The notes beneath the pieces were generated by a model, which was not told the DNA's origin, made no database searches, and was given only the letters and a program-made list of their open reading frames with translations. From a virus: 30,720 nt of DNA. Both the position numbers and the translations under genes were made by a program. Each line of letters opens with the position of its first letter. The stretch's first letter is position 1. Below, in pieces: positions 5,323 to 29,261 of the stretch. Where the stretch lies: IMG/VR virus record IMGVR_UViG_3300046167_000480, positions 1 to 30,720 of that record. One strand, written 5' to 3'.

Positions 5323-6138
5323 TTAAGTCATTCTAATTTTTACGTCGTTATTATGTCTGTACAGTCCGCCTAGCGGTACGCCACCAGCGCTAGCGTCGGT
5401 GTCGTTTGCGTAACTATTAGCATTGTATAAAGCCTTATGTATAACTTGCATACTGCCGTCATTAAAACCGTAATACTCTACTGCATTCATAGTTGCGCCA
5501 GCAAATTCCCCAGTCCCTACGCCTATAATTACATTTGCGTTCCTTGTGCCTGTGCCAGTTGGGTTGCTCGGCGGTGCGTTAAATTTACCTATTATAATCT
5601 CTTTTGCTTGAGAGCTCTCTAATCCTTGTCCAAATAAATGGCTATTTGAGTGTAGGCTCTCATTTAGATAACCAAAAGACGTAGCGTTGTCTGTAGTACC
5701 GCTTGATGTATTATTGTGTCCGACTGAAACAATTTTTGCACTGTCTAAGTTATTAAACCTACCAACGGCTATACCTTGTGCTTGTTCAGTAGTATTCGAA
5801 AAGCCTAAAATATAATTATTTTCATTATTTGCGGTGTTGCCACTACCTATAACGACTGTGTTTTTTTTTGTTACTGTATTGTTACTACCGATAGCCGTAC
5901 TAGCTAAACCATTAACTTCGTTTAACCTACCTATGGCTACCGTAACCTCGCTTGTACCTAAAACGTTTTTTTTACCAGTTGCAAACGAAAATTTGCCGTT
6001 TATTTCATTTTCATAACCAGTAGCTAAAGAGCCTTTGTCGCCATTAAAGTTGTCTACTCCTATTTGTACGCTGCCGTCTACGGGCTGCAAACAAATATTC
6101 CTTGCGGTGTCGTCGTTTTTACGACCTTGCACCCACAA
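5323..6138 (-). CDS. YadA-head-like receptor-binding tail fibre tip (C-terminal part)
   Basis: The frame has about ten repeats of the form A-x-G-x-x-N-x-V-x-G-x-x-S (for example ATGKKNVLGTS, AIGRLNEVNG, AIGSNNTVT, VIGSGNTANN), the Hep_Hag/YadA head beta-roll that trimerises in adhesins. The C-terminus (AGGVPLGGLYRHNN..KIRMT) looks like a fibre tip. The listed start is TTG 6138, but the frame is open and protein-like up to 6204 (reading ARLAIGLGSVYPTAVNYP upstream of TTG). It therefore probably continues the stalk gene at 6146-7474 after a one-base frame break between 6146 and 6205. The trimer would recognise the host surface. Confidence 0.75.
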   Translation of the reverse strand: MWVQGRKNDDTARNICLQPVDGSVQIGVDNFNGDKGSLATGYENEINGKFSFATGKKNVLGTSEVTVAIGRLNEVNGLASTAIGSNNTVTKKNTVVIGSGNTANNENNYILGFSNTTEQAQGIAVGRFNNLDSAKIVSVGHNNTSSGTTDNATSFGYLNESLHSNSHLFGQGLESSQAKEIIIGKFNAPPSNPTGTGTRNANVIIGVGTGEFAGATMNAVEYYGFNDGSMQVIHKALYNANSYANDTDASAGGVPLGGLYRHNNDVKIRMT

Positions 6139-6145
6139 AGGATAG

Positions 6146-7474
6146 TTAACCGCCGTAGGGTATACTGACCCTAAGCCTATTGCTAGTCTCGCTGTCTTCG
6201 TTCTTTAAAACTTGCCCAGCGTCCGAGTCATAAACAACGCTCGGCGCGTGTTTGTCTACGTCATTTGCCGTGAATTTTGCGTTTACTGTCAATGCGCCCG
6301 TCATAGTGTCCCCTGACTTAGAAACCTTATTTGCTATGTCCGAAGCATTTTGCGCAATATCTGTAACATTGGTTGCTATATTACCAGTGTTGGTAGTTAT
6401 GTTTGTAGTATTTGTAGATATGTTCGACGTGTTAGTCGATATATTGGTTGTATTCGTGCTTATATCGGTCGCATTAGTCGATATTCCAGATACATTTGTA
6501 GCAATACCAGAGGAATTCGTTGCAATATTTGTTGCGTTCGTACCTATATCAGTTGTGTTAGTCGAAATATTAGTTTGGTTCGTGGCTATATCCCCAGAGT
6601 TTGCACTTATGTCTTCTTCGTTGGTTTCAATGTTTCCAGCGTTTGTTGAAATGTCTGACGTATTAGTCGATATGTTTGCCGTGTTTGTGGAAATATTAGT
6701 TACGTTAGTAGAAATACCTGATGTATTTGTCGCTATATCAGAGGTATTTGACGCAATGTCTGTCGTGTTAGTTTGTATGTTACCCGTGTTAGTGGATATG
6801 TTACTTGTGTTAGTCGCAATGTTATTTGCGTTTGTCGTTATGTTAGACGTGTTTCCAGAAATAGCGACCTCGTTTAAGATAATATCGGCAGCGTTTGTAG
6901 CTATATTGGTAGCGTTGTCCGATATACCCGTTGCATTCGTGGATATATCCCCCGTATTAGTCGATATATCTGCCGTATTGCTATTTATAGCCGCTTCTAA
7001 GGCACTACCGCTTACAATTAGTACATTATCAATTGCGTTTGTAAATATACCGTTAGAGCCTTTTATTTCAAATGTTTCGCTATCTAAGTCTACATCACCC
7101 GCTCCTGAGTTTCCTGAGAAATCTAAGTCCTCAGCAGTAATTTTGTCATCTACATACTTTTTAGTTGCAGCGTCTTGATCTTCGGTAGGGTCTAAAACGT
7201 TTGTTATTTTATTGCTCGACATAGACGCTTCACTCTCGATTGTAACCGCACCCGAAAGAGTACTTGTGTCTGTAACACTTAAAGAGTTTGCGGTAGCTTG
7301 ACCCGAAGTTTCTAATGTAGTCGATTTAAGCGACCCGTCATTAGATATTTTAACACCCGTAAGAGTGCCTATCCCGTCAGTCAATTCTACTTCGCCCGTG
7401 ATTTCAAGATTATCTTCCGTTTTGATTAACGATTGATAAGTGTCTTTAATTTTAGTGTTTGTTAAAGTTGCCAT
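6146..7474 (-). CDS. Trimeric tail fibre stalk with heptad repeats
   Basis: A 442-residue protein. Residues 1-160 are tail-fibre-like, with a K-I-T-N-V-x-D-P-x-x-x-x-D-A-A-T-K-K-Y-V-D motif at 89-108. Residues about 163-383 are roughly 31 seven-residue repeats of the type T-N-x-x-x-I-S/A, the Asn-rich heptads of trimeric coiled coils. Then comes K-S-G-D-T-M-T-G-A-L (386-395), a frequent phage fibre motif. It ends early at G-G, while the +1 frame continues into YadA-head-like sequence, so this is probably the N-terminal part of one long fibre of about 725 residues. It forms the extended trimeric rod joining the tail to the receptor-binding tip. Confidence 0.85.
   Translation of the reverse strand: MATLTNTKIKDTYQSLIKTEDNLEITGEVELTDGIGTLTGVKISNDGSLKSTTLETSGQATANSLSVTDTSTLSGAVTIESEASMSSNKITNVLDPTEDQDAATKKYVDDKITAEDLDFSGNSGAGDVDLDSETFEIKGSNGIFTNAIDNVLIVSGSALEAAINSNTADISTNTGDISTNATGISDNATNIATNAADIILNEVAISGNTSNITTNANNIATNTSNISTNTGNIQTNTTDIASNTSDIATNTSGISTNVTNISTNTANISTNTSDISTNAGNIETNEEDISANSGDIATNQTNISTNTTDIGTNATNIATNSSGIATNVSGISTNATDISTNTTNISTNTSNISTNTTNITTNTGNIATNVTDIAQNASDIANKVSKSGDTMTGALTVNAKFTANDVDKHAPSVVYDSDAGQVLKNEDSETSNRLRVSIPYGG
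6326..6988 (-). repeat. 21-bp-periodic heptad repeat tract
   Basis: About 31 tandem 21-base units coding T-N-x-x-x-I-[SA]. Units differ at synonymous and x positions, so this is an old, selected coiled-coil tract rather than a fresh duplication. It can vary in length by recombination, which would change fibre length. It also creates a long open frame on the plus strand (6252-7178) that is not a gene. Confidence 0.85.
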
Positions 7475-22790: not shown

Positions 22791-22934
22791 TTAGTAGTTA
22801 TTTTTAGCGTATTCGTACGCTTTAACCAGCAGTAGATGTTGTCTTGGGTTTTGAGGAAGCGATATCCTTACACGTACGTTCCTCTTTTTTATTATGTAGG
22901 CTTCTAAGAACGAAATCATTTCTTGTTCCGTCAT
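22791..22934 (-). CDS. 47-residue small basic protein after terminase
   Basis: ATG 22934 overlaps the terminase stop (TAATG). Product starts MTEQEMISFLEAYIIKKRNV and is basic/helical, ending L-L-L-V-K-A-Y-E-Y-A-K-N-N-Y. The junction with terminase and coherent residues support it. Function unknown; could be a packaging accessory by position. Confidence 0.75.
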   Translation of the reverse strand: MTEQEMISFLEAYIIKKRNVRVRISLPQNPRQHLLLVKAYEYAKNNY

Positions 22935-24094
22935 TACCTAAGAGCATATTTCCCGTAATTAGGTTTACTGAGTTTATTAAATACTAGGTAACGGATTGCG
23001 TCGATTGAGTGATTGAACATATCTACGGGTGTGTTAAGCACAAGACCATTCTTATCCTCTTTCCATTTGTAGTTTCGGAATTCCTTTAGGGTGTTAGTGG
23101 ATTGCTTTGTAACAAATATGTTATATCGTTTAAGCATATCTATTCCTATGTTTATGCTATCCCGTCCTTTAGCAGCTGGTTTTATATTCCAACCCATACG
23201 ATATATTTCATCTATACTTTTCGGTTCTGCACTATCAGCATATATTTCCTCTCGCCTACCCACGCCTAAGCGTTGTAACTCGTTTGCTATATCTCTATTT
23301 GTCATACCCGTACGATATATCTTTTCGTGTACGTACATATTCGTGTCGTGGATAAATATACTTATAAGTGTGCTGGGGTCGTTAGTGTACCCGAAGTCCA
23401 TACCATACCCTAAGTGCCTTGCGTAATCAGGAACTTGGTCTATGAGCGACACATTAAAGATCGTGGCTAAACTCTTTCCTACTTCCCCTAAACCATACAC
23501 ACGCCAATAGTTTTCGTCTGTATCTCTTAGGCGTTCTATTTCATCTATAATCGTGTCAGGTAGAAAGTGATTGTCTTTATATGTCGTAATATGAAACTCA
23601 GCGTCTTCCCGTGTTTTAACCTTTTCGTATATCCAATGGAATTCGTCTGACGGGTTGTAGTCTAAAATAATACGTCCCGTTGTTCTAAACACAAGCTGTT
23701 GCCAATCCTCCCAAAACAATTCGTTTGCCTCGTTTATAAATAGTAAGTCCCTTTTGCGCCCACGTACCTTTTGTGGCTGGTCTAAAGAAATAAACTCTAC
23801 TCTATTCCCGTTTAGTATGTATTCCCCACTTGACTTATTGTGAAACGTTTCTGAGTACAAGCCGTGTGTTTTAAGTATATCAAAGAAATCACGCATTGCA
23901 GATGTACGTAAAGCTGGAAAGGTCTTACGGCATACGGTTATGGTCTTGCCCGTGTTTTGTAGTGAATAATAAAAGATAACCCACAGAAGAATATTATACG
24001 TCTTGCCTGAGCGTGTACCGCCTTGCTCGATTATTATACGCTTGTCTGAGTTTATAAGATGCTTACATACTACGTTAGTCTGTATTGTCTTCAC
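22934..24094 (-). CDS. terL: Terminase large subunit
   Basis: A 386-residue protein with a GTG start at 24094 overlapping the small subunit's 3' end by 20 bases. Walker A GGTRSGKT (25-32), Walker B hydrophobics with N121-E122 (LLFINEAN), and nuclease-domain acidic residues D233 (GMDFGYTNDP), D287 (YADSAEP) and D365 (NHSIDAIRY). It is a PBSX-type large terminase that pumps DNA into the prohead and cuts it. All active-site residues are present. Confidence 0.95.
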   Translation of the reverse strand: MKTIQTNVVCKHLINSDKRIIIEQGGTRSGKTYNILLWVIFYYSLQNTGKTITVCRKTFPALRTSAMRDFFDILKTHGLYSETFHNKSSGEYILNGNRVEFISLDQPQKVRGRKRDLLFINEANELFWEDWQQLVFRTTGRIILDYNPSDEFHWIYEKVKTREDAEFHITTYKDNHFLPDTIIDEIERLRDTDENYWRVYGLGEVGKSLATIFNVSLIDQVPDYARHLGYGMDFGYTNDPSTLISIFIHDTNMYVHEKIYRTGMTNRDIANELQRLGVGRREEIYADSAEPKSIDEIYRMGWNIKPAAKGRDSINIGIDMLKRYNIFVTKQSTNTLKEFRNYKWKEDKNGLVLNTPVDMFNHSIDAIRYLVFNKLSKPNYGKYALR

Positions 24095-24425
24095 TTTCTA
24101 TTATTTCTATTCTAAAGTGGTTTTCAGTTCCTAAGTCAAATTCTTGTCGTTCAATATACCCTCTATTCTTACCTTGTGTTTTAAGATAGAATATGGTTGA
24201 GGTCGTATTGTTTTCTCGTATCTGTTCAAATAACTTACTTTCCACGAAGTCCAAACAAATGTTTTTCACGTTGTCTACTGACGATTTATAATCAGGGTCT
24301 TCCTTATACCAGCGATAATGTGTTTCTCGGCTTATCTCTGCTTTGTTACACGCAACCGATACGACACCTAAGCTACTTTCTAAGGCTTGTATCATTACTC
24401 CTTTTTTAGTGTCAGATTTTGTCAT
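24075..24425 (-). CDS. terS: Terminase small subunit
   Basis: A 116-residue protein with an N-terminal helix-turn-helix-like region (LGVVSVACNKAEISRETHYRWYKEDPDY, about 19-46), as in small terminases that recognise the packaging site, followed by an oligomerisation helix (FVESKLFEQIRENNTTSTIFYLK) and an acidic C-terminus. It is located directly ahead of the large subunit. Confidence 0.88.
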   Translation of the reverse strand: MTKSDTKKGVMIQALESSLGVVSVACNKAEISRETHYRWYKEDPDYKSSVDNVKNICLDFVESKLFEQIRENNTTSTIFYLKTQGKNRGYIERQEFDLGTENHFRIEIIESEDNTD

Positions 24426-24979
24426 AAGATGTCAGATTTTTTTAAAGCGAATTCTTCCATACAATGCGGACACATCACGTCTACCGTTTGGTCTAAATGG
24501 CTTTGGTTAATGTTTGTCATTTGATTATTCATTTTATCCTCTTTATTCTTATAGTCCTCAGGGGACATATCGTTTATGTTAAAACCTACGCTATCCTCTA
24601 GCCAATTATTCAAATTGATGTTAGGGAAGTAGGCTTGCATATCTTCTACATTGTCTATTTCTCGCATCTCTAACACAAGGTCTTCATTGTTCCACAATGT
24701 TAGTTCGTGCGTCTTGTTGTCTGCTATCCTATACTCTTTTACCTTTTTGTCGGATAAGTGGTCTACTACAATTACGTTTATTTCGTCATACCCTAATTGC
24801 ATAAGTGCCTTGTATCTTGCGTGTCCCGTAATTATTACACCCTCGTTGTCTATTGATATTGGTTGATTGTACCCGTACTTTTTAATCGACTGCTTCAATG
24901 CGTCAATCGTTCTGTCATTCTTTCTTGCGTTTCGCCAATAAGGTTTAATGCTAGATAATTTCTTCGTTTGGATTTTCAT
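24422..24979 (-). CDS. ParB-fold protein with C-terminal CPHC knuckle
   Basis: A 185-residue protein. The N-terminal ParB/sulfiredoxin-like domain is visible: L-S-S-I-K-P-Y-W-R-N-A-R-K-N-D (8-22), G-Y-N-Q-P-I (36-41), then I-I-T-G-H-A-R-Y-K-A-L (49-59), the ParB box II-type motif. A Gln/Asn/Lys-rich linker precedes C170-P-H-C173, a CxxC pair that is half a zinc site and may bind metal with a partner. In phages such proteins often sit just before terminase. It may be a DNA-binding or nucleotide-binding factor; partition is unlikely as no ParA is present. Confidence 0.8.
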   Translation of the reverse strand: MKIQTKKLSSIKPYWRNARKNDRTIDALKQSIKKYGYNQPISIDNEGVIITGHARYKALMQLGYDEINVIVVDHLSDKKVKEYRIADNKTHELTLWNNEDLVLEMREIDNVEDMQAYFPNINLNNWLEDSVGFNINDMSPEDYKNKEDKMNNQMTNINQSHLDQTVDVMCPHCMEEFALKKSDIL

Positions 24980-25607
24980 TCTTAAATTCTTTTTTGATTT
25001 GTAATTGATGTTTTGTTTCCCACGACTTTTTGTATTCTACGTCTTTAAATAATTTACTGAACCCCGTTATGTGTTTTAATCGTATCAGTTCCTCAGCTTC
25101 CATTCCTAACTCGTTACAGATGTCTTCGTCTTTCCAGCCGTTATCCAGCATATCAAATACCATACTTGACATTCCGTCTATTGAGTGTTTGCCTCTTGCT
25201 CGGTTGTGCCGTACAGTTGATGCCATTCTATCGTTTATATCCTTTTCTATTACAACGATAGGGAGCCGTCCTAAGTTACGTTCTAGAATATCATTATTTG
25301 TTTTGCACGTCAGGTATCTGTGGAAGCCGTCCACGATTACGTACTTATCTTTTTCTTCATCATAAACCGTTACGATAGGTTGTGTATAGCCGTCGTGTGC
25401 AATAGAAGTGTATAAGAGTTTCATTTCTACTCGTGCAACACTATTGGGGTTATAGTCGTTAGCGGTTACTTTATTGATGTCAACCCAACGAACTCGTGCA
25501 ACGGGTTGCGTCCTTAGTGGGTGTACGTCAAATAGGTAATCCATTATTTGCTCTATTTTATCGAGCCGTTCTTCGCCTTGTAATTTTTCTATTCCTAATT
25601 CAACCAT
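24951..25607 (-). CDS. ibrB-like: IbrB-like ParB-fold protein
   Basis: A 218-residue protein. ParB-fold features: W41-V-D-I-N-K-V-T-A-N-D-Y-N-P-N, G-Y-T-Q-P-I-V (73-79), I-V-D-G-F-H-R (91-97) and R-H-N-R-A-R-G-K-H (133-141), with a helical C-terminal half. The D-G-F-H-R and R-H-N-R-A-R-G motifs are those I associate with IbrB proteins, which occur beside IbrA (PAPS-reductase-like) proteins in prophages. Here that partner is exactly the next upstream gene, overlapping by 8 bases. In the ParB/Srx superfamily this pocket binds a nucleotide (CTP or ATP). Function in phage unknown. Confidence 0.82.
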   Translation of the reverse strand: MVELGIEKLQGEERLDKIEQIMDYLFDVHPLRTQPVARVRWVDINKVTANDYNPNSVARVEMKLLYTSIAHDGYTQPIVTVYDEEKDKYVIVDGFHRYLTCKTNNDILERNLGRLPIVVIEKDINDRMASTVRHNRARGKHSIDGMSSMVFDMLDNGWKDEDICNELGMEAEELIRLKHITGFSKLFKDVEYKKSWETKHQLQIKKEFKNENPNEEII

Positions 25608-26751
25608 TTATATATTTATTTGTGTCTGTATATTTGTTCGTTATTCCACGTTTCCACTTACGCCAAGTATCTACGTCAGGGTGTCTTTCCCAATTTGTAA
25701 GCTTTGTAAACTCAAAGTCATTTGCTAGGATAGAGTTTATTTGTACTCGTGTCAGTTTGTCTTTATGAAACTCCATATCGTATTTTGCGTCCATTTTATC
25801 GAAACGCTTTTTGAATTTAGCTCGGTGCTTCTCGTTTGTTACAAGGTTGTCTACTAGGTGGTCTCGGTATTCAATCCAATCTCTAAACATAAAAGGTAGT
25901 TCTTTGATCTTGAGAAAGTTTTCACGCCCAAGTTTTCCAGCAGTATTGATACCCGACAATCTCTTTGTAAGCTTGTTCCACGTTTCCTTTTCGATTTCTT
26001 CTAAGTAGTAAAGGCTTTCAACGGCGGTTTCGTGGTGTAAGTTAGACACTCGCATTGATTTTATGTTGATGCCGTGCATATACTGATAGTCGTATATTTT
26101 AGTGTACTTCCAGCCGTTGTCGTGTATCGCTTTCCACACGTCTGTAAAACTCCAATCGTATATAGGATAAAACGTGTAGTGGTTCATACTTCTATTTAAT
26201 CGTTTCCCGAACGTCAAATACTTATATGTAGCGTCTGAGGTTACCGCTAAAAAACGTGCTGGACTTTCCTCTGTCCTAACACCAGCTAAGTAACACGCTT
26301 TAGTGTCTTTAAAGTGATGCTCGAAAATGGCTTGGAACATATCGAAAAACCTATCCGTTCCGTATATATTTTCTTTGTAAGCGTAATCTTCTTTAGGTCG
26401 CATCCAATTTTCCTCATCTTTCGGGTTCCAGCATTCTAACCAATGGTCTGTGTTGCTCGTTGCATTAAACAACCTAATAGGCACTTGAAACCACATTGGC
26501 TCGATACGTGGGTCTGACATAACCTCTCGGACGTAATCAATAACATTCTGCCATTCTGCTTCTTGGTCTAAAAACATAACTTTTAGCGGAAGCCTATTGC
26601 GTTCCTCAGCAACCTTTAAAGCTAGGTTTAATACGCACGTGCTATCTTTACCACCCGAAAACCCGACAACCACGTTATCGAATTCATCGAATAAATAATT
26701 TATGCGTTTTAGCGCAGCGTCATAGACATTGTCGTTTTTATATATTTTCAT
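25600..26751 (-). CDS. ibrA-like: PAPS-reductase-like ATP pyrophosphatase (IbrA-like)
   Basis: A 383-residue protein. PP-loop S-G-G-K-D-S at 32-37 after strand VVVGF, the nucleotide-binding motif of PAPS reductases and other ATP pyrophosphatases. Later segments (V-R-T-E-E-S-P-A-R-F, about 164-173; F-Y-P-I-Y-D-W-S-F-T-D-V-W, about 202-214) match the PAPS-reductase family (DUF3440/IbrA type). The catalytic Cys-Gly-Leu-His motif of true CysH is absent, so it is probably not a sulfite-forming reductase. It may activate a substrate by adenylation for sulfur or other transfer. Paired with the ParB-fold gene. Confidence 0.85.
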   Translation of the reverse strand: MKIYKNDNVYDAALKRINYLFDEFDNVVVGFSGGKDSTCVLNLALKVAEERNRLPLKVMFLDQEAEWQNVIDYVREVMSDPRIEPMWFQVPIRLFNATSNTDHWLECWNPKDEENWMRPKEDYAYKENIYGTDRFFDMFQAIFEHHFKDTKACYLAGVRTEESPARFLAVTSDATYKYLTFGKRLNRSMNHYTFYPIYDWSFTDVWKAIHDNGWKYTKIYDYQYMHGINIKSMRVSNLHHETAVESLYYLEEIEKETWNKLTKRLSGINTAGKLGRENFLKIKELPFMFRDWIEYRDHLVDNLVTNEKHRAKFKKRFDKMDAKYDMEFHKDKLTRVQINSILANDFEFTKLTNWERHPDVDTWRKWKRGITNKYTDTNKYING

Positions 26752-27343
26752 ACTTATATGATATTGCTTTTCCTACATTATGCCCTAAGGTGCTTACGTC
26801 CCCTATATGCTCAAATAAGCACGGGACGGGGGTTGTCCATTCTATATTGTGATATACAAAATAATCTTGTACGCACACGTCATAGTGATTTCTTCGTTTC
26901 TCAGGTATAAACTCCTTACCCTCTTTTTGTAACCAATCTTGCACACGTTTGTTTAGTCCTTGTTGGTTTATGTAAATACTTGCGTGGTCGTAAAAACCTC
27001 GTTTTACTACTCCTTTATAAAACCCTTGCGAAGCAAATTTTTTTAGGTGTGGTCTTCTAGTAAATAATGAATAAAGGTCTGTTTTTGTTTCTGAGTGTAT
27101 TTTACGCCAATCATCTATCCATTGCGGTTTCGTGATAACGTCGTCCATTGTAATGAGTATTGGCTCGTCTTTCTTAGCGTCATCTAACATACCCTCTAAG
27201 GCACGTTGTAAGTTCCAAGCGTGTCCTAACCTACGATAGTCCACAAACAAAGTAACCTCGCAACCGCTTTCCTCTAGTACATCTATTAAAGGGTATAGGT
27301 ATGCGTCCCGTTTGTTAGGGATTGTTACTATTCCTACTTTCAT
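26738..27343 (-). CDS. Putative GT-A-type glycosyltransferase
   Basis: A 201-residue protein starting MKVGIVTIPNKRDAYLYPLI, with a Rossmann-like first strand, V-T-L-F-V-D (30-35), then I-T-M-D-D-V (64-69) in which D67-D68 resemble the DXD metal/nucleotide-sugar motif of GT-A enzymes, followed by a substrate-side region (LFTRRPHLKKF; Y-D-H-A-S-I-Y-I-N). Small for a glycosyltransferase. It could glycosylate DNA bases or a protein; its location with IbrA/B-like and GNAT genes suggests a modification cassette. No signal peptide. Confidence 0.68.
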   Translation of the reverse strand: MKVGIVTIPNKRDAYLYPLIDVLEESGCEVTLFVDYRRLGHAWNLQRALEGMLDDAKKDEPILITMDDVITKPQWIDDWRKIHSETKTDLYSLFTRRPHLKKFASQGFYKGVVKRGFYDHASIYINQQGLNKRVQDWLQKEGKEFIPEKRRNHYDVCVQDYFVYHNIEWTTPVPCLFEHIGDVSTLGHNVGKAISYKYENI

Positions 27344-27675
27344 TTTTTTATAGGTGCTTTGTTTATTACGCCGTATCGACTTTCTTTAGTCGAAGCGATA
27401 AAGTATTTATGGTCGTTGTAATAAAAGTATATGAATTCTACACGGAAGAACCTTTCTCGGTTTCCGTTTTTCAGCAACCACGCAACGACTGAATAATATT
27501 TGCGTCTGTTCGCTTTGTAATTCTTTTCTAAAAGATAACTATGCGGAAGTCCTTTCTTTGCGTAATTACTACTAAACTTCCACTTTTGTTTGTCAATCCA
27601 TTCTAACACTTCGCTTTCTGTAAGCGTATCGTGTTCGGGAAAGGTGTCGTCAAATTCTACTATTTTGTATGCCAT
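27340..27675 (-). CDS. Hypothetical protein in modification-type cassette
   Basis: A 111-residue protein rich in aromatic and basic residues (KYYSVVAWLLKNGNRERFFRVEFIYFYYNDHKYF). ATG 27675 overlaps the GNAT stop by one base; its stop overlaps the glycosyltransferase start. I recognise no family. Confidence 0.7.
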   Translation of the reverse strand: MAYKIVEFDDTFPEHDTLTESEVLEWIDKQKWKFSSNYAKKGLPHSYLLEKNYKANRRKYYSVVAWLLKNGNRERFFRVEFIYFYYNDHKYFIASTKESRYGVINKAPIKK

Positions 27676-28045
27676 TAAATATAATATTCTAAATGTAAGT
27701 AATTTTTATATGATTTTATAGGTGTAGCACCTAAGCGTTTGTGTAATTGATAGGACATTCTCGTGCATCTTAATTCTATTACCGTTCCGTTACCAGCTTC
27801 TTGCTCGATAACTTTTAGTCGTTCCCTATGTAGCTTTTCATATATACGTTGTCCTCTGTACTCAGGCAATACGAAAGCGTTTCTTAGAACATACTTATTT
27901 TTATTCTTTGTCCAGCCGACTGTACCTACAATGTTATTACCTATGAAATACCCTAAAAACTGACACTCAGGAAGATAGTTAACCCCTGACTTTTTGGCTT
28001 GTGTCGTTATATCTTAAGGTCTTTATAGTTTATTGGCTTTATCAT
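27675..28045 (-). pseudogene. GNAT acetyltransferase with a one-base frame break
   Basis: From TAA 27675-27677 the frame is open up to 28013 and reads a full GNAT domain: G-Y-F-I-G-N-N-I-V-G-T-V-G-W, then L-R-N-A-F-V-L-P-E-Y-R-G-Q-R-I-Y-E-K-L (motif A with the acetyl-CoA pyrophosphate loop R-G-Q-R-I), then L-R-C-T-R-M-S-Y-Q-L-H-K-R-L-G-A. No ATG, GTG or CTG is present in this frame upstream of a TTG at 27869, which is inside motif A. ATG 28045 in a neighbouring frame gives M-I-K-P-I-N-Y-K-D-L-K, then stop; adding one base at AAG|ATA (K-D-I-T-T-Q-A-K-K-S) joins the two into a 123-residue protein of GNAT length. Either a -1 frameshift, a mutation, or an assembly error. Confidence 0.72.
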
Positions 28046-28051
28046 TGTAAC

Positions 28052-28082
28052 GCAATATAAACAAATTTTATCGTATTGTCAA
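28052..28082 (-). promoter_or_regulatory. Weak promoter-like element before GNAT gene
   Basis: Minus strand TTG (28080-28082), 20 bases, TATATTGC (28052-28059). It overlaps the stop of the DnaA-like gene in an ATTTGACAAT context like that at 1480. The predicted leader would be almost absent before ATG 28045. Confidence 0.38.
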
Positions 28083-28474
28083 ATATTTAGTGTGTCAAAG
28101 ATTTTCTCTACCACCTCATAGTCTTGTGTGCTTTTTATTTTCATAATTCTTTGTGCGAGTTCCGTCCTTTCGCTAATCGAAACATATTCGCCTTGTAAAA
28201 TCAAATGCGCTCGTCTTACGGCTAAATTGTTTGCTTCGACTACTGGGAATTGTTTGTGCAAATGTATTATTGAAGCGTGGGACTTTACGGGTTTACCTTT
28301 CTCGGTAAAGTATTTTGCTATATCAGACCAACCCATATTAAAACTATCGTGTAGTATTTTAACGAGTAAGACTCTGCCGTCTGAGTATTCTCGTTTTCGA
28401 GTATTCTTAAATAGGTCTATCCCTAAAACTTCTATAACACGTTTTGATATTTCGTTTTCTAAATTCCGTTCCAT
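28079..28474 (-). CDS. DnaA-domain-IV-like DNA-binding protein
   Basis: I start it at ATG 28474 (MERNLENEISKRVIEVLG), four bases after the nuclease stop; an ATG at 28501 would overlap that gene by 22 bases and adds residues unlike the family. The core (YSDGRVLLVKILHD, W-S-D-I-A-K-Y-F, G-K-P-V-K-S-H-A-S-I-I-H-L-H-K) resembles the C-terminal helix-turn-helix of DnaA that binds DnaA boxes, without the ATPase part. It may bind the phage origin or regulate early genes. Confidence 0.75.
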   Translation of the reverse strand: MERNLENEISKRVIEVLGIDLFKNTRKREYSDGRVLLVKILHDSFNMGWSDIAKYFTEKGKPVKSHASIIHLHKQFPVVEANNLAVRRAHLILQGEYVSISERTELAQRIMKIKSTQDYEVVEKIFDTLNI

Positions 28475-28478
28475 AATA

Positions 28479-29261
28479 TTATAATGTCCCCTCGTAAACA
28501 TAACTATTTATGTCCGCAGGTGTTAAAAAAAACTTGTTGTATAATTCTATCGCTTGGTGCGTTTCATCACGTCCACGCTCGTAAAATTCTTCTGAGCATT
28601 TAAATATACCTATGTCTAAGTTGTTTTTGTCGATACACACAAAGGTAAAATCTTTATAATCAACATTAAACAAGTTGCAATATATATAAACTTGAACGTG
28701 ATATTTATATTTTTGTGCGCTAATTTGGAAGTTCTTTATGTCGGTAGTCGTTTTTAGATCTACCAAACCACCTTTTGTTTGTAACACATCTGCTTTTCCA
28801 CGAAAAGGTATTCCGTCTATAAGACCCACACTAGGTATCTCAAACCTAGCGTCTGTTAAATACTTAGCCGTGTGGTCGTTTCTGTGGAATGCGTCCACAA
28901 GACGTTCTGCATCTTGCTTTTCTTTTATCGTGAACACTTGGTCGTGGTACGCCTTAGCTTCCTTATACGCTTTAGTGTTTTTAGATTGTACGTTTACAAA
29001 CACGCATTCATCTATCTTCTCGGGTTCTAATATCATTGTGTGAAACAACCAGCCTGACCGCAAGGCCTGACTACTCTTTTGCCCGTACTTAGTTACGTAA
29101 TGATACGTCTTAGGACTATCCAGCAGTAGCTTACAAGTCGAGCTTGATAACGCCGTCTTGCCTAAATAATTGTAGTAAAAGTCATCTGAGTACGCATTGT
29201 CGATTAACTCTTGTCTGTCGTGGATAGAGCCGTCTAGTAGTTTTATTGTTTTACTTTCCAT
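28479..29261 (-). CDS. PD-(D/E)XK exonuclease, RecE/DUF3799-like
   Basis: A 260-residue protein. L-S-S-S-T-C-K-L-L-L-D-S-P (38-50), G-x-L-F-H (H74), E141, G-K-A-D158-V-L, V-D168-L-K170-T-T and Q190-V-Y-I-Y form the RecB-type nuclease signature (E/D...D-x-K and the Q-x-x-x-Y motif). This matches exodeoxyribonuclease VIII/RecE-like enzymes, which resect double-strand ends for recombination. No annealing partner (RecT/Beta) is visible in the window; the SSB-like and NinG genes are far away. Confidence 0.85.
   Translation of the reverse strand: MESKTIKLLDGSIHDRQELIDNAYSDDFYYNYLGKTALSSSTCKLLLDSPKTYHYVTKYGQKSSQALRSGWLFHTMILEPEKIDECVFVNVQSKNTKAYKEAKAYHDQVFTIKEKQDAERLVDAFHRNDHTAKYLTDARFEIPSVGLIDGIPFRGKADVLQTKGGLVDLKTTTDIKNFQISAQKYKYHVQVYIYCNLFNVDYKDFTFVCIDKNNLDIGIFKCSEEFYERGRDETHQAIELYNKFFLTPADINSYVYEGTL

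Follow-up and report, generated by a model that had tools for sequence, protein, structure and literature searches.

We analysed a 30,720-base stretch of viral DNA (IMG/VR record IMGVR_UViG_3300046167_000480, a linear fragment taken at its complete length and hereafter called the window), in which an IbrA/IbrB gene pair forms the core of a cassette beside the terminase genes. A sequence-only reading of this DNA had described an IbrA/IbrB-like pair within a possible modification cassette, and all of the cassette genes that it named, including an upstream 111-residue protein (here U111), were found on the minus strand where it had placed them. The order on that strand is exonuclease VIII-like gene, 140-residue protein, GNAT acetyltransferase, U111, glycosyltransferase (GT), IbrA, IbrB, ParB2, TerS and TerL, and neighbouring genes from GNAT through TerL overlap by 1 to 29 bases, making up one operon:

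27675 to 28045, minus strand: GNAT acetyltransferase gene in the tailoring slot, frameshifted (Pfam Acetyltransf_1 on the open part; DNA alignment with the close relatives L002 and L003)
27340 to 27675, minus strand: U111, small uncharacterised domain protein of 111 residues (alignments; AlphaFold2 model)
26738 to 27343, minus strand: GT-A-fold glycosyltransferase with acidic metal-site motif TMDDV (AlphaFold2 and Foldseek; matches of relatives to phrog_854)
25600 to 26751, minus strand: IbrA, 383 residues, PP-loop ATP pyrophosphatase of the PAPS (phosphoadenosine phosphosulfate)-reductase/DUF3440 kind (Pfam and PHROG matches)
24951 to 25607, minus strand: IbrB, ParB/sulfiredoxin-fold partner with motifs DGFHR and RHNRARGKH (Pfam and PHROG matches)
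24422 to 24979, minus strand: ParB2, second ParB-fold protein (ParB_N; related to phrog_498 and phrog_620)
24075 to 24425, minus strand: terminase small subunit TerS, downstream border (phrog_309, E = 4e-7)
22934 to 24094, minus strand: terminase large subunit TerL, downstream border (Terminase_3, E = 1e-21)
28079 to 28501, minus strand: variable 140-residue protein of unknown function, upstream border (36-46% identical in close relatives, against 84-95% for the other genes)
28479 to 29261, minus strand: exonuclease VIII-like protein, upstream border (DUF3799, E = 3e-19; phrog_412, E = 7e-37)

IbrA carries an intact PP-loop (SGGKDS, residues 32-37), matches PAPS_reduct (PF01507, E = 9e-15, 55.5 bits) followed by DUF3440 (PF11922, E = 2e-8, 34.8 bits), both above cut-off, and belongs with phrog_2302 (E = 4e-91), sharing 28% identity with Escherichia coli YbdN. 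IbrB matches phrog_2159 (E = 2e-73) and, slightly under the curated cut-off, Pfam ParB_N (E = 4e-5), and is 43% identical to E. coli YbdM. The ibrB gene (25607-24951) lies directly downstream of ibrA (26751-25600) with the 8-base overlap noticed earlier, so that the window has the same two families, order and overlap as the known pairs (E. coli prophages; YbdN/YbdM; phrog_2302 and phrog_2159). Those pairs have been described as co-activators in prophages, with no stated chemistry; the pair in the window differs in forming, together with U111 and tailoring enzymes, the core of a cassette next to the terminase. ParB2, as the sequence-only reading held, is a second ParB-fold protein (ParB_N, E = 2e-6) with a C-terminal CPHC, and it resembles the ParB part of phage ParB-methyltransferase proteins (phrog_498, phrog_620).

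Aligning 29 IbrA proteins as diverse as E. coli YbdN and that of mycobacteriophage Phlyer, we found the PP-loop, D62, E64, W108, R159, E162, R166, D199, W200, D204 and R234 to be at least 93% conserved. No cysteine is conserved across these 29 proteins, which bears out the earlier remark that IbrA lacks a CysH catalytic motif and makes a sulfur-carrier or sulfur-transfer role unlikely. Two candidate identities were rejected on the same ground together with scores far under threshold: a CysH PAPS reductase (TIGR00434, 22.6 bits against a cut-off of 165) and a DndC sulfurtransferase (TIGR03183, 32.8 bits against 290.4).

Upstream of IbrA, the window GT has no Pfam match, and its relatives match the phrog_854 glucosyltransferase family. 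Its AlphaFold2 model (predicted local distance difference test, pLDDT, 83.5) was matched by Foldseek to GnT-I, POMGnT1, KfiA and TarS/TarP at probability 1.00; the earlier assignment of a small GT-A-like protein was thereby confirmed. Both marks of a GT-A glycosyltransferase are present, namely the nucleotide-diphosphosugar fold and an acidic metal motif: the window protein has ITMDDV, and D68 is invariant in 26 sequences. The upstream GNAT was upheld in family (Acetyltransf_1, E = 2e-5 on the open part) but not as an intact gene. It is not one open frame, the open reading frame caller finding only 64 residues (27869-27675), and DNA alignment with L002 and L003, which have intact 123-residue GNATs, places a one-base deletion near 28015. 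The frameshift is either a sequencing or assembly error or the sign of a broken, decayed tailoring gene. Mu Mom is likewise a GNAT-fold enzyme, one used in phage DNA modification, but comparison of profiles shows no relationship between the two (hhalign probability 0.8%).

U111 is an unrecognised domain with a confidently predicted structure (AlphaFold2 pLDDT 90.7, predicted template modelling score 0.85) and no solved relative. It had no match in Pfam or PHROG, nothing significant among PDB sequences and nothing at E ≤ 0.001 among PDB folds; BFVD returned one unnamed 93-residue viral protein (E = 2e-5). Alignments define a motif present in most relatives, (W-x-F)-A-K-[TS]-M-P-x-x-P-H-x-Y ... 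KYWTMG ... INRA, from which the window protein diverges (KGLPHSY, KYFIAS, VINKA).

To follow the cassette across viral contigs, we searched with the IbrA protein, which returned nine close relatives, and by alignment, which returned 425 stretches from which 80 loci were kept; open reading frames were called and clustered, and profiles were built. The most frequent families were IbrA (97/99 loci), IbrB (97/99) and ParB2-like proteins (92/99). Of 60 loci selected by IbrA alone that have at least 2.6 kb of upstream sequence, 53 have U111 there and 58 have at least one other tailoring gene. A separate IbrB-selected set gave IbrA upstream in 51/51 loci, U111 in 46/51 and tailoring genes in 45/51, so the conserved neighbourhood that had been proposed for checking is present. 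Both sets include related phages, and their counts are not independent events. Homologous phages with the terminase adjacent and the cassette genes absent, which would have spoken against the sequence-only reading, are not what we found: TerL lies within 2.5 kb downstream in 50 of the 52 IbrB loci. Chance is excluded, since dozens to hundreds of independent contigs show this gene order.

The IbrA-IbrB-terminase core is fixed, and the slot upstream of it is variable. A non-redundant set of 82 loci (95% identity threshold on IbrA; it includes loci selected by the U111 motif, which biases its U111 count) contains about 40 gene orders or architectures, the slot being occupied by GT-A-like families c6, c15 and c38, GNAT, methyltransferases c13 and c20, a U111-methyltransferase fusion, and c18, a 170-residue protein with an invariant HxD...H pattern. 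Family c20 matches phage DNA methyltransferases (phrog_498, E = 2e-5; SDPPW motif). These occupants do not combine freely: c18 accompanies GT c6 in 11 of 11 cases (Fisher p = 1.5e-6, shared ancestry ignored) and never occurs with GNAT or c20, and GNAT and c13 are mutually exclusive (0/25, p = 0.004, shared ancestry again ignored). The clearest comparison is between the window and locus L004, whose exonuclease, IbrA, IbrB, ParB2, TerS and TerL are 84-90% identical; the same slot holds GNAT, U111 and GT c15 in the window, but U111 (25% identical), GT c6 and c18 in L004. As judged from these alignments, a whole tailoring set has been replaced at a fixed place.

Five loci (L038, L040, L041, L045 and L046) also have a cytidylyltransferase-like nucleotidyltransferase, c54 (CTP_transf_like, E = 7e-15), between IbrB and TerS, about 1.4 kb downstream of mid-IbrA. 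It is a possible maker of an activated donor.

The cassette also occurs in cultured phages. The genome of Microbacterium phage Hendrix ends with GT, GT (the second assigned via phrog_854), U111 plus methyltransferase, GNAT and IbrA, and begins with IbrB, ParB, ParB, gp4 and TerL; since this genome is circularly permuted (PMC7302621), the two ends are contiguous and form a complete cassette. Microbacterium phages Rasputia and Leaf have the same U111 plus methyltransferase and IbrA with a GT set unlike that of Hendrix, and mycobacteriophage Phlyer has ParB, two small genes, IbrA, IbrB and terminase in succession. When GT, U111 and c18 were sought in isolate phages by tblastn, mostly nothing was returned, with GT c6 found only in Hendrix. 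A SNF2-type helicase adjoins IbrA/IbrB in Flavobacterium and Streptococcus phages, and in Pseudoalteromonas phage XCL1123 (L102, 6326-6718) an ectoine-synthase-like cupin (Ectoine_synth, E = 2e-35), perhaps another tailoring enzyme, stands between IbrA and IbrB.

A DNA motif scan of viral contigs and of bacterial and archaeal genomes extended the picture for U111. In viral contigs it located 117 true U111 genes, 95 of which have IbrA or IbrB within the fetched stretch, and in cellular genomes it located 70, either stand-alone (about 100 residues) or fused to other domains. The cellular fusion partners include GmrSD (L114, L124, L138, L170), PD-(D/E)XK nucleases (L147, L153), an S-adenosylmethionine-dependent methyltransferase (L135; such fusions also occur in the viral cassettes) and, judged by eye, an HNH-like stretch (L161). 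Separate GmrSD genes, some of them encoding full proteins with N- and C-terminal parts, adjoin U111 at other cellular loci, including one in a Planctomycete; altogether, fusion or adjacency to GmrSD was confirmed with Pfam at eight loci and suggested by a motif proxy at 13 of 70. GmrSD enzymes cleave modified, preferably glucosylated, DNA, and BrxU of this family prefers DNA with glucosylated cytosine (PMC12409352). These associations suggest that U111 handles DNA, perhaps modified DNA, whether by reading it or by catalysis. Two further kinds of cellular fusion were seen: with an ADP-ribosylglycohydrolase in a metagenome-assembled genome of a Methanomicrobiales archaeon (L148, 3882-5336, minus strand), and, in Flavobacteriaceae (L163, L177, L179), behind an N-terminal domain of about 150 residues, which in L163 and L179 has no Pfam match.

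Taken together, we consider the cassette to be, with fair probability, a modular system for post-replicative hypermodification of phage DNA bases in which IbrA activates by adenylation. Enzymes of the PP-loop superfamily adenylate a substrate, and for IbrA this would likeliest be a base carbonyl, or else a small carboxylate to be attached to the base. As IbrA has no conserved cysteines, attack of an amine or other nucleophile on the adenylated carbonyl would be the simplest chemistry, and an adduct bearing an amine would suit the alternation of acetyl- and methyltransferases in the slot. IbrB would be the obligatory partner, with the ParB-fold proteins as DNA- and nucleotide-binding subunits. 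The primary adduct would be put on canonical bases after replication and before packaging, recognised or acted upon by U111, and then capped by the tailoring enzymes, that is, by the glycosyltransferase and GNAT in the window and by methyltransferases or the dioxygenase-like enzyme elsewhere. Phage DNA so modified would be hidden from bacterial defences, and the caps may be swapped among relatives as those defences, for example GmrSD type IV restriction enzymes, adapt to each.

The core families have names but no described chemistry: IbrA and IbrB appear in the annotation of many phages and of E. coli itself, the sole described role being that of co-activators of prophage genes. Seen as the core of a modular tailoring cassette, the pair is no longer just an uninformative annotation but part of a pathway that can be tested in cultured, harmless phages. 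U111 is found on both sides, in the tailoring operons of phages and next to type IV restriction enzymes of bacteria, which points to an arms race over a modified base. Neither the cassette nor U111 turned up in a literature search, which did not extend to the 2013 survey of phage base modification by Iyer et al., where lysidine-like pyrimidines may have been predicted. More tentatively, and at somewhat less than even chances, IbrA, IbrB and U111 could be the core of a widespread, previously uncharacterised pathway to a base not yet described, on which glycosyl, acyl, methyl and hydroxyl caps can replace one another; U111 could be a new domain for handling modified bases that is shared with GmrSD-type and other nucleases.

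Known systems offer partial parallels. In the CmoA-CmoX-CmoY system, base modification to 5-carboxymethylcytosine, made by a C5-methyltransferase homologue, provides a handle that is then activated with ATP (AMP-forming) and capped, CmoY being an asparagine-synthetase homologue (PMC12783734). Both it and the proposed IbrAB system are phage DNA cassettes with activation and capping, and ParB-domain genes occur in many Cmo neighbourhoods. IbrA, however, is a PAPS-reductase-type PP-loop protein with DUF3440, unlike CmoY, and no CmoA, CmoX or CmoY homologues were noticed among recurrent cassette neighbours, for which no dedicated search was made. T4-type glucosyl-hydroxymethylcytosine is likewise the work of a glycosyltransferase on phage DNA, and GmrSD-type enzymes act against it (PMC12409352), but the cassette GT is a small GT-A protein, and none of 16 cassette phages, the complete Hendrix included and most others being contigs of unknown completeness, has a gene of the thymidylate-synthase/hydroxymethylase family, which makes a T4-type hydroxymethyl-nucleotide route unlikely.

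Several observations weigh against DNA hypermodification. A modified base in cassette phages is a prediction from gene content. IbrA and IbrB also occur as a lone pair, YbdN/YbdM, in E. coli K-12, and several phages carry them with no tailoring genes, so the core can act without caps. Cellular U111 stands beside IbrAB in only 2 of 70 cases and is therefore not specific to the pathway. Among the tailoring genes, the window GNAT is frameshifted, Pfam supports methyltransferases c13 and c20 only weakly, and the dioxygenase-like label of c18, given solely from its HxD...H pattern, is tentative because no Pfam family or PDB profile matched it. Glycosyltransferases and GNATs, moreover, can modify proteins as well.

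This last point leads to the strongest competing explanation, in which the targets of the GT, GNAT and methyltransferases would be capsid or tail proteins, with IbrAB making or activating the donor. The operon adjoins structural genes, and there are two to four GTs in Hendrix, Rasputia and Leaf, but DNA nucleases and methyltransferases are fused to U111 or accompany it, c20 resembles DNA methyltransferases, ParB-fold proteins are constant partners, and the cassette is common to phages of different terminase families; we regard virion-protein modification as unlikely. A little less probable again is modification of tRNA or mRNA, IbrA acting like TilS, TtcA or ThiI during takeover and the tailoring enzymes finishing the base. 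It is true that the PP-loop enzymes best known for acting on nucleic acids act on tRNA, that a U111-methyltransferase protein shows weak similarity to a phage family of tRNA methyltransferases (phrog_4752, E = 1e-6), and that tRNA genes lie directly upstream in Hendrix and Leaf. Against this, no tRNA was found in the window, fast cap swapping suits defence evasion more than translation, and the cassette is tied to DNA restriction enzymes and to terminase.

On the hypermodification reading, the E. coli eib phenotype would be explained by an indirect effect on expression through DNA modification. The converse, that IbrAB is itself a regulator that co-activates phage or host genes such as the YadA-like fibre, as proposed for the eib genes, has the name and annotation of IbrAB in the literature in its favour, together with a fibre-like protein with YadA-head-type repeats in the window (5323-6138). 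We consider it very unlikely. The PP-loop active site is essentially invariant in the 29 aligned proteins, which argues that IbrA is an enzyme; the swapped tailoring enzymes beside it would be of no use to a regulator; and the cassette is found together with several unrelated terminase families and in phages whose hosts are unrelated, Microbacterium and Mycobacterium phages among them. Regulation of fibre expression, which the sequence-only reading had raised by analogy with eib, is therefore unsupported, and its interpretation as a whole stands in part: the conservation of the core by the terminase, the swapping of tailoring modules and the ties of U111 to nucleases and methyltransferases favour a modification cassette.

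Least probable of all is DNA sulfur modification by a DndC-like IbrA yielding a phosphorothioate or thio-base, since the weak DndC matches (TIGR03183 as above; PADLOC, E = 2e-11) are set against the lack of conserved cysteines and the fact that cysteine desulfurase, DndD and DndE families were not noticed among recurrent neighbours. In Dnd, Ssp and type 4 BREX phosphorothioation (DndC, SspD, BrxP) a PAPS-reductase-superfamily PP-loop protein is likewise linked to a ParB-superfamily protein (DndB), but IbrA lacks conserved cysteines and none of the other Dnd genes was noticed among its neighbours.

As for the fibre region itself, the repeats of the protein at 5323-6138 (minus strand) were recognised by eye (SLATGYENEINGKFSFATGKKN...AIGSNNTV), with no Pfam match at E ≤ 0.01. 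Next to it, at 6146-7474 on the same strand, lies a 442-residue protein with long runs of an ISTNTTNI-like repeat of about 7 residues, whose PHROG matches are all tail or fibre proteins.

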